A stretch of DNA of 64,000 nucleotides from assembly GCF_000245015.1 (NCBI RefSeq), contig NZ_JH600070.1, positions 2,605,588 to 2,669,587 on the forward strand, written 5' to 3'. The DNA comes from Beggiatoa alba B18LD (GTDB taxonomy: Bacteria > Pseudomonadota > Gammaproteobacteria > Beggiatoales > Beggiatoaceae). Of this stretch, positions 43,786 to 61,479 are shown one piece after another; position 1 is the first letter of the stretch; each line of letters begins with the position of its first letter. The notes beneath the pieces are model-generated. The model had not been told where the DNA came from, did no database searches, and worked only from the letters and a program-made list of their open reading frames with translations. A program made the position numbers and the translations under genes.

Positions 43786-44374
43786 TTGCCTGCAATTTCT
43801 CCTTTCATGATAATACCGCTATTCGTTGATTAGATTTCTTATCAACGCTTTTTTTATCTATCCTAATTTGGGATAACAAAAAATTTTAAATAATTTTTAA
43901 TCAGTTATGAAGTTAATTTATATTGATTTTCTAGCGTAAATAGCACAATAACGGTAAGCAATATTTTTATTTGCTAATTCTATAATATTACTTATTTTTT
44001 GTTAATTGATTGAGCGTTATTCTGTAAGTAAGTAATAAAAGGGTCGTTATTTAGTTAAATAATAGGTTTTTTTAAAAAAATGGATTTTAAAAAAATTTGA
44101 AATATTTTCGTTATTATTTAAATAATAATGATTTGCTACATCAATTTTAATATTTAATTTTATTAATATAAATCATTACATTAAGTTTTAAAAGTGTTGT
44201 TAATAATACTATATCTCGGTATAAATATTTAAGCATTAGTTTAATTAATCAATGTAATTAATTGATTTAAAATAGTTTAAAATGATAATTATTTTTATAT
44301 TGTATTTATTTTGATATTTGATGTTTTATAAAATTGAAGGTAGTATTTATCACAACTGCAACGGAGCTAATTCA
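43786..44374. other. Very AT-rich intergenic region without a gene
   Basis: About 590 bp that are strongly A+T rich, with many TTATTTAA-type runs and no ATG frame of useful length. It carries the promoter of the ModE gene, but no site could be fixed; ACTATATCTCGGTATAAAT near 44210 is only loosely ModE-like. Confidence 0.6.
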
Positions 44375-45172
44375 GTGACAACAAAAATACAGGGTTTCAT
44401 TTGGCTATACCGTGATGATCGTAATTTTGCAGGACCGGGGCGAATTCAGCTTTTAGAGAAAATCGGCGAGTTCGGTTCTATTTCTAAAGCGGCTAAAGCG
44501 ATGGGAATGAGTTATAAAGGGGCTTGGGATTCTATTGATTTAATGAATAATCTCGCGCCAGAGTTGTTAGTAACTCGAGTTGCAGGGGGTAAAGGGGGCG
44601 GTGGTTCTCAATTAACTGAGTATGCGCATCGTTTAATTAAGGCGTTTCATGAGTTTGAACGCGAGCATCAGCAGTTTTTGGAACAGTTAAACCAAAAAAT
44701 TGAGAATTTCGACCAGCTTTATCAGTTTATGCATCGTCTTAACATGCAAACCAGTGCGAGAAATCAGTTTGCAGGGACGATTACCAGTATTACGCAGGGC
44801 ATTGTTAATGCTGAAGTGACGTTGAAGTTAAAAGGTGGGCTGGAAATTGTTGCAACGATTACTTTGGATAGTATTAATCAGTTGGGTTTGTGTGTGGGAC
44901 GAACTGCGGTTGCATTGGTGAAGTCACCTCAAATCGTGTTAGCCAATGCGGACACAACCTTAAAATTTAGTGCTAGAAATCAGTTGTATGGAAAAATTTC
45001 TGATATAGAACAAGGCTCTGTCAATATCGCGGTTACAATTGATCTAGCAGGTGGTAATACGCTGAAGGCAGTTGTCACGGAAGAGGCATTAACAGATTTG
45101 GGTGTTAAAGAGGGTGATCCAATCTGTGCAATTTTTAAATCTAGTAGCGTTATCATTGCGGTAGAGGCATAA
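44375..45172 (+). CDS. modE: Molybdate-responsive regulator ModE
   Basis: A 265-residue ModE. The N-terminal winged helix (1-110) contains GRIQLLEKIGEFGSISKAA, AMGMSYKGAWDSIDLMNN and GGKGGGGSQLTEYA, all typical of ModE. Two molybdate-binding Mop domains follow (about 125-190 and 195-262), each starting SARNQ. ModE with molybdate bound usually represses molybdate uptake and controls molybdoenzyme genes. The GTG at 44375 has GGAG 8 nt upstream and starts close to the domain; upstream ATGs lie in the AT-rich leader. No modABC genes are in the window. Confidence 0.9.
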   Translation: MTTKIQGFIWLYRDDRNFAGPGRIQLLEKIGEFGSISKAAKAMGMSYKGAWDSIDLMNNLAPELLVTRVAGGKGGGGSQLTEYAHRLIKAFHEFEREHQQFLEQLNQKIENFDQLYQFMHRLNMQTSARNQFAGTITSITQGIVNAEVTLKLKGGLEIVATITLDSINQLGLCVGRTAVALVKSPQIVLANADTTLKFSARNQLYGKISDIEQGSVNIAVTIDLAGGNTLKAVVTEEALTDLGVKEGDPICAIFKSSSVIIAVEA

Positions 45173-45241: not shown

Positions 45242-45667
45242 ATGTACACCAGTGCAAGAAATCAATTCAAAGGGACTGTTGCTAAGATTGCTAAAGGGGC
45301 AGTTAATGCCGAAGTGACGTTAAAATTAGCGGGTGATGTTGAAGTTGTCGCCTCTATCACGGTGTCTAGTTTAGACCGTTTAGGTTTAAAAGAAGGGCAA
45401 TCTGCGATTGCTTTAATCAAAGCCCCGCAGGTTATTCTGGTCAGTGCCGATACTAAGTTGAAATTTAGTGCTAGAAATCATTTAGCGGGCAAAGTTGCCA
45501 GTATCGAAAAAGGGGCTGTCAATACCATTGTTAGCGTTACGTTAGCGGGTGGTGCTGTTCTGAAATCTGTCATTACTGAGGATGCTTTAAGTGATTTAGG
45601 TCTGAAAGAAGGCGTAGCTGTTGCCGCTGTCTTCAAATCTAGTAGTGTTATCCTCGCTGTAGAATAA
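45242..45667 (+). CDS. Di-Mop molybdate-binding protein (molbindin)
   Basis: A 141-residue cytoplasmic protein made only of two Mop domains (4-68 and 73-140). Each starts SARN and ends in a VILxxxDT or SSSVILAVE strand. It closely resembles the C-terminal half of the preceding ModE protein, so the pair probably arose by duplication. Molbindins store or buffer molybdate/tungstate as oligomers. AGAGGAATACT precedes the ATG. The 69-bp spacing after modE suggests cotranscription. Confidence 0.9.
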   Translation: MYTSARNQFKGTVAKIAKGAVNAEVTLKLAGDVEVVASITVSSLDRLGLKEGQSAIALIKAPQVILVSADTKLKFSARNHLAGKVASIEKGAVNTIVSVTLAGGAVLKSVITEDALSDLGLKEGVAVAAVFKSSSVILAVE

Positions 45668-45755
45668 GTACAAAAATAAGCATTGTGACATTAGAAAGGA
45701 ACTAGCCTAAAATGATTAGTTCCTTTTTTTATTGTTCGCGGATTTAGGTGCGCTT

Positions 45756-46316
45756 ATGATTTATGAGTCCATTGTCACAACGTGTAATCCTGATGGCAGT
45801 ATGCACCCTGCGCCGTTAGGCATTCATTGGCAAGTAGATACATTAATTATCGCGCCTTTTTGTCCTTGTCGAACCTTGGATAATTTAACGCACACTTCAC
45901 AAGCTGTGATTAATTTTTGTGATGATGTTCGTCTATTTGCGGGTTGTTTGACGGGGCGACGTGATTGGTCGAGTCGTTCTGCAACGACTATTCAAGGGTA
46001 TGTACTTTCTGTTGCGTTAAGTCATTTAGAAGTACAGGTCGTTAAGGTAGAAGCGGATGAAGTTCGTCCACGTTTTTATTGTAAAGTGGTTCATGAAGCG
46101 ACTCATGCGCCTTTTCGTGGTTTTAACCGTGCACAAGCTGCTGTGATTGAAGGGGCTATTTTAATCAGCCGTTTGGCATTTCTGCCCCTCAATAAAGTAC
46201 AACAAGAATTAGACTATTTAAAAATAGCGATTGAGAAAACCGCTGGAGAGAGAGAGCAAGAAGCATGGCAGTGGTTGATGGAAAAATATAATGCTTTTTT
46301 GATGGAAAATGTTTAG
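45756..46316 (+). CDS. DUF447-family protein of the H4MPT/methanofuran cofactor group
   Basis: A 186-residue protein that begins MIYESIVTTCNPDGSMHPAPLG, seen here in overlapping parts, the start of DUF447 proteins with a flavin-reductase-like split-barrel fold. VINFCDDVRLFAGCLTGRRDW follows. The family is found in methanogens and in methylotrophs with tetrahydromethanopterin-linked C1 genes; its reaction is not established to my knowledge. The TTG-started extension to 45732 is not needed. The stop codon is directly followed by the mfnB ATG. Confidence 0.78.
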   Translation: MIYESIVTTCNPDGSMHPAPLGIHWQVDTLIIAPFCPCRTLDNLTHTSQAVINFCDDVRLFAGCLTGRRDWSSRSATTIQGYVLSVALSHLEVQVVKVEADEVRPRFYCKVVHEATHAPFRGFNRAQAAVIEGAILISRLAFLPLNKVQQELDYLKIAIEKTAGEREQEAWQWLMEKYNAFLMENV

Positions 46317-47018
46317 ATGACGCAATTATTAGCCAGTGTAATGAATGTAGCAGAAGCCGACCAAGCCTTGCAGGGTGGTGCTGATATTATTGATTTAAAA
46401 AATCCTTTGGCAGGGGCTTTAGGCGCTTTACCTAGTGCAACGATTCGTGCTGTCACGCAATTTGTTAATCATCGTGCGCCAGTCAGTGCAACCGTTGGTG
46501 ATTTACCGATGCAAGCCGAGATGATTTATCGAGCAGTGGCAAAAACGATGGATGATGGGGTTGATTACGTTAAAATTGGTTTTTGGGGGGCAACGCCTGC
46601 ATTGGATTGTATGAAAGCCTTAGAACCCTTAACTCAACGGGGTGGCAAATTAATCGCGGTCTTATTTGCAGACCAACAACCTAATTTAGCAACTCTTTTT
46701 GAATTTGCTCAAGCAGGATTTACTGGGGTTATGTTGGATACGGCAAATAAACAAAAAGGCAATTTAACACATTATCTGAATAATAGTGAATTAGGTTTTT
46801 TTGTTAAGCAAACTCAGTCGCTTGGTTTAATAAATGGGTTGGCTGGTTCAATAGGGCTTGCAAATATCCCTCAACTAATGATATTATCCCCTTTCTATTT
46901 AGGGTTTCGCGGTGCGTTATGTGTTGCACAGCAACGGCAAGCAGTTTTGCAGGCTCATGCCGTAAAGCAAATCCGTGAAGCAATGTTAAATTGTAAAAAA
47001 GATTTAAAAATTGCTTGA
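46317..47018 (+). CDS. mfnB: (5-formylfuran-3-yl)methyl phosphate synthase
   Basis: A 233-residue TIM-barrel enzyme of the MfnB/DUF556 family. MfnB makes the furan ring precursor of methanofuran from two glyceraldehyde-3-phosphate molecules. Key regions are LLASVMNVAEADQAL, GADIIDLKNPLAGALGALP (Lys for the Schiff base), VSATVGDLP, DYVKIGFWG and GVMLDTANK. Immediate coupling to the DUF447 gene supports a role in C1 transfer with H4MPT and methanofuran analogues, as in methylotrophs. Confidence 0.88.
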   Translation: MTQLLASVMNVAEADQALQGGADIIDLKNPLAGALGALPSATIRAVTQFVNHRAPVSATVGDLPMQAEMIYRAVAKTMDDGVDYVKIGFWGATPALDCMKALEPLTQRGGKLIAVLFADQQPNLATLFEFAQAGFTGVMLDTANKQKGNLTHYLNNSELGFFVKQTQSLGLINGLAGSIGLANIPQLMILSPFYLGFRGALCVAQQRQAVLQAHAVKQIREAMLNCKKDLKIA

Positions 47019-60444: not shown

Positions 60445-60599
60445 AACCTGAGTTCTACGGACTTCTTTTAAAAAATTGTCCGAATCAGGATTTAAAACCC
60501 TCAAATAAAAGACTTAATGTGAACGAATGTTTTAAATCCTGAAAATCCTGATTCAGACAAGCTATTGTCTTTTTAACAGAAACTCGCAGAACTCGGATT
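60445..60599. repeat. MITE-like dispersed repeat, copy 9 (155 bp)
   Basis: Degenerate ends AACCTGAGTTCTACGGAC and CTCGCAGAACTCGGATT surround fold-back arms TTGTCCGAATCAGGATTTAAA and TTTAAATCCTGAAAATCCTG...CAGACAA, with each run shortened here. It fills the gap between convergent uvrB and the TauE/SafE gene and overlaps the latter's stop codon. Confidence 0.85.
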
Positions 60600-61419
60600 A
60601 ATGTAGAAAAATCTTAATTGCTGAAATTATTAAAATAATACCTAATAAAATTTTTAACAGTGTAGGGGCGATAACACCAACTAAAATTCCACCTATCATT
60701 GCGCCAATGACAGAACCGATACTCATCGGTACAAGGGTATTTGTAAAAACCTTAGAAGATTGATATGCGCCATGCTTAAGATGACGAATAACACCCGTCA
60801 TCACAATAGGTAAAGAAATTAACAAACTTGCTGTACCTGCCCATTTTATATCCATTCCATACCCCAAAATTAATGTTGGAATAATTAATTCTCCGCCTGC
60901 AATCCCCAATAGACTACTCGCTAATCCAATACCAATCCCTAACAAGATGCCAGCAACTACATGCCATAACCAACTATTTGGTAGTAAGACAACAGAACTT
61001 TCTGGCATAAAACCTTCTATTATTAATAATAAGCCAATAAAGCTTAGTAACCACATAATAAGCCTTTCCAATTGTTCTTTTGATAAAGAGGTAACTAACC
61101 TCCCACCAAAAAAGGCGGCGAAAACTCCTCCAGATGTTAACGCCAACATTGCAGGTATAAAATGCAATAAAGGTTCTAAAGACAGAACACTTTTTCTTGC
61201 AAAAAAGGCTATTAATAATGTGACTAAACTGATGAACAAATTAATCGAAATAGCTTGACTGATATTGTAACGTAGAACACCCACCAGAACAGGCAAGCGG
61301 AACTCAGCCCCTCCTAAACCAATCAATCCACCTAAAGTGCTTATAGGTACAGCATACATAAATGCTAATATGGTGTGAGTGCGAGCAGAAAAATCTATAA
61401 CATCCTGTTTTTCAGACAT
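60598..61419 (-). CDS. TauE/SafE-family anion exporter
   Basis: A 273-residue membrane protein with about eight hydrophobic helices. The repeated family motif is seen twice: STLGGLIGLGGAEFRLPVLV near residue 22 and LASSLLGIAGGELIIPTLIL near 165. Members move sulfite, sulfonates, thiosulfate or related anions. In a sulfur bacterium sulfite is an obvious candidate. However, a ModE operator 37 bp upstream links this copy to molybdate status, so an oxyanion such as molybdate, tungstate or sulfite handled by molybdoenzymes should be considered. The substrate is not determined by the sequence. Confidence 0.85.
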   Translation of the reverse strand: MSEKQDVIDFSARTHTILAFMYAVPISTLGGLIGLGGAEFRLPVLVGVLRYNISQAISINLFISLVTLLIAFFARKSVLSLEPLLHFIPAMLALTSGGVFAAFFGGRLVTSLSKEQLERLIMWLLSFIGLLLIIEGFMPESSVVLLPNSWLWHVVAGILLGIGIGLASSLLGIAGGELIIPTLILGYGMDIKWAGTASLLISLPIVMTGVIRHLKHGAYQSSKVFTNTLVPMSIGSVIGAMIGGILVGVIAPTLLKILLGIILIISAIKIFLH

Positions 61420-61439: not shown

Positions 61440-61450
61440 GATTTATAACA
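61440..61450 (-). promoter_or_regulatory. -10 region of the TauE/SafE gene
   Basis: TTATAAAT on the minus strand lies about 8-10 bp downstream of the ModE box, so the box covers the -35 region. AGGGT near 61430 may be the ribosome site. Confidence 0.4.
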
Positions 61451-61455
61451 CAAAC

Positions 61456-61479
61456 CGTTATATTAATTAATATATAACG
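61456..61479. promoter_or_regulatory. ModE operator upstream of the TauE/SafE gene
   Basis: CGTTATAT and ATATAACG are perfect 8-bp inverted arms separated by 8 bp. As I recall it, the E. coli modA operator has the same arrangement (CGTTATAT-N8-ACATAACG). The box lies 37-60 bp upstream of the start codon, where a repressor would block transcription. Confidence 0.7.

Follow-up and report, generated by a model that had tools for sequence, protein, structure and literature searches.

Why does a gene for a TauE/SafE-type anion carrier in Beggiatoa alba B18LD stand behind what looks like an operator of the molybdate-responsive regulator ModE, and what does its product carry? Both lie in a 64,000-nucleotide stretch (the window) of the 4.27 Mb genome of this gammaproteobacterium. 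The best reading is a role in supplying molybdate or tungstate, and it draws on two independent lines of evidence, the ModE operator at this locus and the membership of related genes in mod operons elsewhere. We put at roughly two in three the probability that the protein is an inner-membrane TSUP oxyanion carrier of a molybdate-linked subfamily, made under molybdenum shortage and most likely importing molybdate or tungstate.

The letters of the box (CGTTATATTAATTAATATATAACG) fit the pattern CGTTATAT-N8-ATATAACG with no mismatch, and the core of the dyad CGNTATAT-N8-ATATANCG is likewise intact. Three perfect cores were observed in the genome (4.265 Mb) against 0.0033 expected, and four with at most one mismatch against 0.15, the expectations being computed from the base composition of the window. 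The reversed control pattern, allowing up to one mismatch, had no match in the genome. The published ModE consensus has 20 fixed positions, ATCGNTATATA-N6-TATATANCGAT (PMC545781), a pattern also applied in PMC2700814; the TauE box agrees with it at 17/20 positions, and the modBAC box reaches the same score. The site therefore resembles proteobacterial ModE operators such as that of E. coli modA in its core arms, spacing, AT content and consensus positions, and B. alba has both ModE and a boxed modBAC. Unlike those operators, its target is a TSUP carrier rather than an ATP-binding cassette (ABC) transporter or a molybdenum cofactor (Moco) gene.

An earlier note, made from the letters alone, had described perfect arms at this site 37 bp ahead of the TauE start codon, beside a -10-like element. 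The arms and the upstream position hold, with a measured gap to the ATG of 36 bp. The -10-like sequence, TTATAAAT, is present, but a sigma-70 promoter scan beside and overlapping the box gave no match of at least 9/12, so that reading stays a guess. No RNA element near the box, Moco riboswitches included, exceeded the Rfam gathering score. About 30 bp away lies a dispersed repeat, GTTCNGCGAGNTTTTATAAANTAAA, with 23 genome copies at up to three mismatches (reversed pattern, 0); the box is not contained in it.

We scanned the whole genome and those of relatives for the box, a check that the earlier note had proposed, and molybdate genes carried boxes in both. The three perfect boxes stand before the TauE gene, before a gene fusing a globin to a molybdopterin domain, and at an orphan site. 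A box with one mismatch lies upstream of MsrP. Those with two mismatches precede modBAC and a small molybdopterin-domain (SUOX-fold) gene followed by tupABC; both lean on gene context, because about three sites with up to two mismatches are expected in the genome by chance. Elsewhere in the family, modE-modA operons, molybdopterin-domain genes, a Mop gene and TonB-dependent receptors lie behind boxes that have at most one mismatch. Since the remaining regulon in the genome and the family carries boxes, the TauE site very probably functions as a ModE operator, as the earlier note had proposed. That note had also placed ModE and molbindin genes 17 kb away; they are indeed in the vicinity, at about 16 kb. 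The ModE protein scored 98.1 bits against TIGR00637, slightly below the 98.5 cut-off. Box-to-start distances are 29 bp for modB, 280 bp for MsrP and 209 bp for the tup operon. The spacing of the TauE box, nearer to that of modB, fits repression, as far as so few genes can suggest.

The second line of evidence comes from relatives of the carrier, collected by scanning 84,980 species genomes with an alignment of seven members. The best 80 of 354 were fetched (58% to 35% identity), the nearest being from Chloroflexota and Cyanobacteria (58%). Label-free clustering of neighbouring open reading frames ranked the ModC-like, ModA, ModB and Mop families highest, and NCBIfam confirmed representative ModA, ModB, ModC, ModE and Mop neighbours. 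ModA, ModB, ModE or Mop lay within 1.5 kb in 35/80 subfamily loci; this selection of top-scoring loci includes close relatives that are not independent, so the counts show a pattern and give no exact rate. The same genes were found within 1.5 kb of 0/40 other TSUP genes from relatives (Fisher, 2.8e-8), a control slightly below 40 independent genes because a few loci hold the same gene twice. They were found beside 0/29 other TSUP genes in the same genomes, a thirtieth row (L190) having been left out because it is the subfamily gene of L087 itself. No sulfonate or sulfite gene cluster was among the recurrent neighbours of the carrier, which were mod genes.

Searched with profiles made from the neighbour clusters, 35 loci have mod genes on the strand of the carrier gene no more than 3.2 kb away. 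The commonest order was modA-modB-tauE (8), with modA-tauE-modB-modC variants (5), modABC-tauE (4), tauE-modB-modC (4), modE-modABC-tauE (2) and others; modE-modA-tauE-modB-modC was also seen. The carrier gene stands between modA and modB in at least five genomes. Four loci with ModC only count for little, ABC ATPases being similar to one another. Linked loci were found in Pseudomonadota, Cyanobacteriota, Chloroflexota, Thermomicrobiota, Armatimonadota, Bacillota, Campylobacterota, Bacteroidota and Actinomycetota. In eight modA-modB-tauE loci (L071, L083, L085, L086, L092, L093, L109 and L113) no same-strand modC is nearby, and the ATPase must therefore be elsewhere or shared. A regulator with HTH_17 and periplasmic-binding-protein-like (PF12727) domains recurs beside the carrier or mod genes in Bacillota, Armatimonadota and others (Table 1), and is a possible substitute for ModE.

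ModE-like sites also occur at distant members. A loose dyad pattern gave seven matches in 982 kb of fetched loci, all seven in loci containing modE, which is present in 13/80. In L106, L107 and L120 the dyad directly precedes a stand-alone tauE that adjoins modE without modABC; therefore, the arrangement in the window is not unique.

The carrier matches PF01925 (TauE) with E=6.7e-25 and 88.6 bits (gathering score 32.6). Among 40 relatives of B. alba, 25 of them from the same family, no orthologue was found, the matches all being partial, at 24-41% identity; nor does the genus mate have one. Because its own family lacks an orthologue, the gene was probably acquired horizontally from outside. 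Across 369 gammaproteobacterial genomes, seven, including B. alba, have a match at 1e-15 or better, and in three of these loci (L055, L057 and L059) the carrier gene adjoins mod genes, L059 with the complete run modE-modA-modB-modC-tauE.

A tree of 117 TSUP proteins (quick method) sets the subfamily on one side of a branch with a Shimodaira-Hasegawa-like approximate likelihood ratio support of 100, and molybdate-linked members are spread over the whole clade. It shares Pfam family, length and membrane topology with TauE, SafE and CysZ of C. glutamicum (TSUP; TC 2.A.102). It differs from them in being a separate clade, in its placement in mod operons and in its motifs, GLGGAEFRLP and GVAGGELIIP (GLGGAEFRLP and GIAGGELIIP in the window carrier). 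These replace GxGGGxxxVP, which occurs, often twice, in most control TSUPs; the Pfam model does not demand it. E39 and R41, both outside the search seeds, do not vary among 63 subfamily sequences; E177 is invariant too, partly by construction, as it lies inside a seed. The AlphaFold2 model (mean confidence, pLDDT, 89.8) has ten helices in a 5+5 arrangement, and each motif starts a short helix, one per half. A PDB sequence search returned no solved homologue. The model fits the fold of the undecaprenyl-pyrophosphate phosphatase BacA/UppP (5OON, 6FMT) far better than that of any transporter: this was the only clear match (Z 16.2 over 243 residues), the next, unrelated one having Z 5.9. At 15% identity, and with BacA/UppP being an enzyme and not a carrier, the likeness is one of predicted fold, a hint that TSUP and UppP share an ancestor.

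From this we infer that ModE binds and represses at the box. When molybdate is plentiful, molybdenum-bound ModE would occupy the operator and switch transcription off; when it is scarce, the carrier would be made together with ModABC and TupABC. It would then bring molybdate (or tungstate) inward, probably more cheaply or with lower affinity than the ABC pumps do, by a transport that we expect to be ion-coupled, with the oxyanion perhaps held by R41 and two re-entrant helix ends. Uptake is preferred because the gene would be switched on with uptake genes at molybdenum shortage. Thiomolybdate, as a substrate in sulfidic habitats, was considered and is disfavoured, since members also occur in Duganella, Paenibacillus and Nostoc, genera that do not seem tied to sulfidic places.

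Prokaryotic molybdenum uptake is usually described in terms of ABC transporters and a few secondary carriers, and this clade would add a transporter class. The carrier resembles ModABC, TupABC and WtpABC in gene neighbourhood and in control by molybdate regulators, but would be a single-chain secondary carrier with neither ATPase nor binding protein. It shares a proposed role as a secondary carrier of the molybdate oxyanion with MOT1 (SulP superfamily) and PerO (Rhodobacter capsulatus), which belong to different protein families. Within PF01925, a family that bears the label 'sulfite exporter', there appears to be a neglected branch with a part in supplying cells with molybdenum or tungsten. 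If so, a mod-operon TSUP clade in at least eight phyla would correct the automatic label of many proteins, TSUP would gain a substrate beyond sulfur anions, and two acidic residues and one arginine would be singled out. The open literature searched, with subscription papers and supplements outside the search, held no report of a TSUP target of ModE and no description of a ModE or molybdate link to TauE or TSUP. This agrees with the earlier note, which knew of no molybdate-repressed TauE/SafE protein.

Several points weigh against an importer of molybdate or tungstate. Half of the fetched members are not beside mod genes and may have other substrates. The TSUP proteins characterised to date transport sulfur anions, and not all in the same direction. 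ModB is also present in 52/60 examined carrier genomes (21/21 first examined, and above cut-off in 31/39 further ones), so there is no general replacement of ModABC. In agreement, replacement of ModBC by the TSUP protein where modA-tauE stands alone was rejected for L132 and L133, as ModB is encoded elsewhere in the genome. Four of the eight ModB-less genomes have the carrier and MoaA, with no ModA or TupA detected at thresholds that could miss WtpABC and in a search that did not cover sulfate ABC transporters, MOT1 or PerO. These are Bellilinea caldifistulae and three metagenome-assembled genomes (a Thermanaerothrix, a Chloroflexota and a Nitrososphaerales). We propose only tentatively, at somewhat less than even odds, that the subfamily is a widespread class of secondary molybdate/tungstate importers, able to be the sole dedicated route in Moco makers without ModABC and TupABC. 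It would be a candidate answer to how such bacteria and archaea lacking ModABC obtain the metal.

The most serious alternative, which we consider unlikely, is that the carrier does not bring molybdate inward at all and instead expels an anion (sulfite, sulfate or excess tungstate) that builds up when ModABC is active or molybdoenzymes lack cofactor. The family name and known members speak for export, among them TauE of Cupriavidus necator, a sulfite exporter according to work cited in PMC3949148. Three ModE-box genes in the genome encode SUOX-fold proteins, one of them MsrP, and Beggiatoa presumably oxidises sulfur. However, across phyla the neighbours are modABC, modE and mop rather than sulfite enzymes, and the box position, close to the ATG as at modB, suits repression by molybdate, whereas an exporter of excess oxyanion should be induced. 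The earlier note had offered both molybdate/tungstate uptake and sulfite export tied to molybdoenzymes; the operon membership of relatives favours the former.

Less probable still is that the protein serves ModABC as an accessory or regulatory subunit, stabilising or tuning ModB, for instance, and transports nothing. This would suit the many genes placed between modA and modB or right after modB, the overlapping reading frames in L071 and L083, and the presence of ModB in most carrier genomes. It accords poorly with the stand-alone copies far from mod genes, that of the window included, with the four genomes in which the carrier gene occurs and no ModB or ModA was found, and with a predicted fold that is a full 5+5 helix carrier. 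We regard it as very improbable that the ModE site is real and its control of a recently gained or incidental gene physiologically meaningless: the likely horizontal gain would allow it, but homologues in distant lineages are linked to molybdate by another route, operon membership, and the two independent lines agree. A palindrome that arose by chance or as a structural repeat, with no relation to ModE, is scarcely credible, AT-rich and near a dispersed repeat as it is, given the excess of perfect copies, the empty reversed control and its absence from that repeat.

Table 1. Positions of the features discussed; those without a locus label are window coordinates.
Feature	Position	Strand	Remarks
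modE, ModE DNA-binding domain and two Mop/TOBE domains	44318..45172	+	TIGR00637; start codon unsure, likely internal
di-Mop molbindin	45242..45667	+	TIGR00638, E=1.6e-44
One-carbon genes (methylofuran/H4MPT type) by modE-mop	45732-47018		
TauE/SafE carrier	60598..61419	-	PF01925, TSUP; 273 aa; GGAEFRLP/GVAGGELIIP subfamily
Possible -10 (TTATAAAT)	61440..61449	-	between operator and start codon; promoter scan gives no support
ModE-type operator CGTTATAT-N8-ATATAACG	61456..61479	.	exact core match, upstream of TauE-family gene
Dispersed repeat GTTCNGCGAGNTTTTATAAANTAAA	61510-61534		
One-carbon genes (methylofuran/H4MPT type) by modBAC	L015:6788-8846		
Orphan perfect ModE box	L011:7463-7486 (C2:649462-649485)		between YgaP-type membrane gene and mfd
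Globin-SUOX protein	L012:6518-7633; L033:288-1379		
Boxed TonB-dependent receptors	L035:1554-3023; L041:1613-3022; L044:3-1481		
HTH_17-PF12727 regulator	L090:2992-3945; also L087, L093, L113, L114		
Box with one mismatch upstream of MsrP	L013		
Box with two mismatches before SUOX-fold gene and tupABC	L014		
Box with two mismatches before modBAC	L015		

Other ModE boxes drew attention to further genes. TonB-dependent receptors stand right behind boxes with 0-1 mismatch in three loci of the family, those of L035 and L044 with the box 19-29 bp from the start, which suggests that ModE controls the uptake of molybdate or a molybdophore across the outer membrane. The orphan perfect box has no gene directly downstream; a sigma-54-like GGCACAGCTTTTGC lies about 90 bp beyond it, the Rfam matches nearby are low-scoring hairpins, and the box possibly serves a small RNA or is the remnant of a lost receptor gene. 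Both species of the genus have, after a perfect ModE box, the gene for a protein with a bacterial globin domain at the N-terminus and a molybdopterin-binding (SUOX-type) domain at the C-terminus. Finally, one-carbon genes of the methylofuran/tetrahydromethanopterin (H4MPT) type adjoin both modE-mop and modBAC, encoding DUF447, 4HFCP synthase, an MfnD-like ligase and an H4MPT-linked C1 protein; the pair beside modBAC is divergent from modB, with the ModE box between them.
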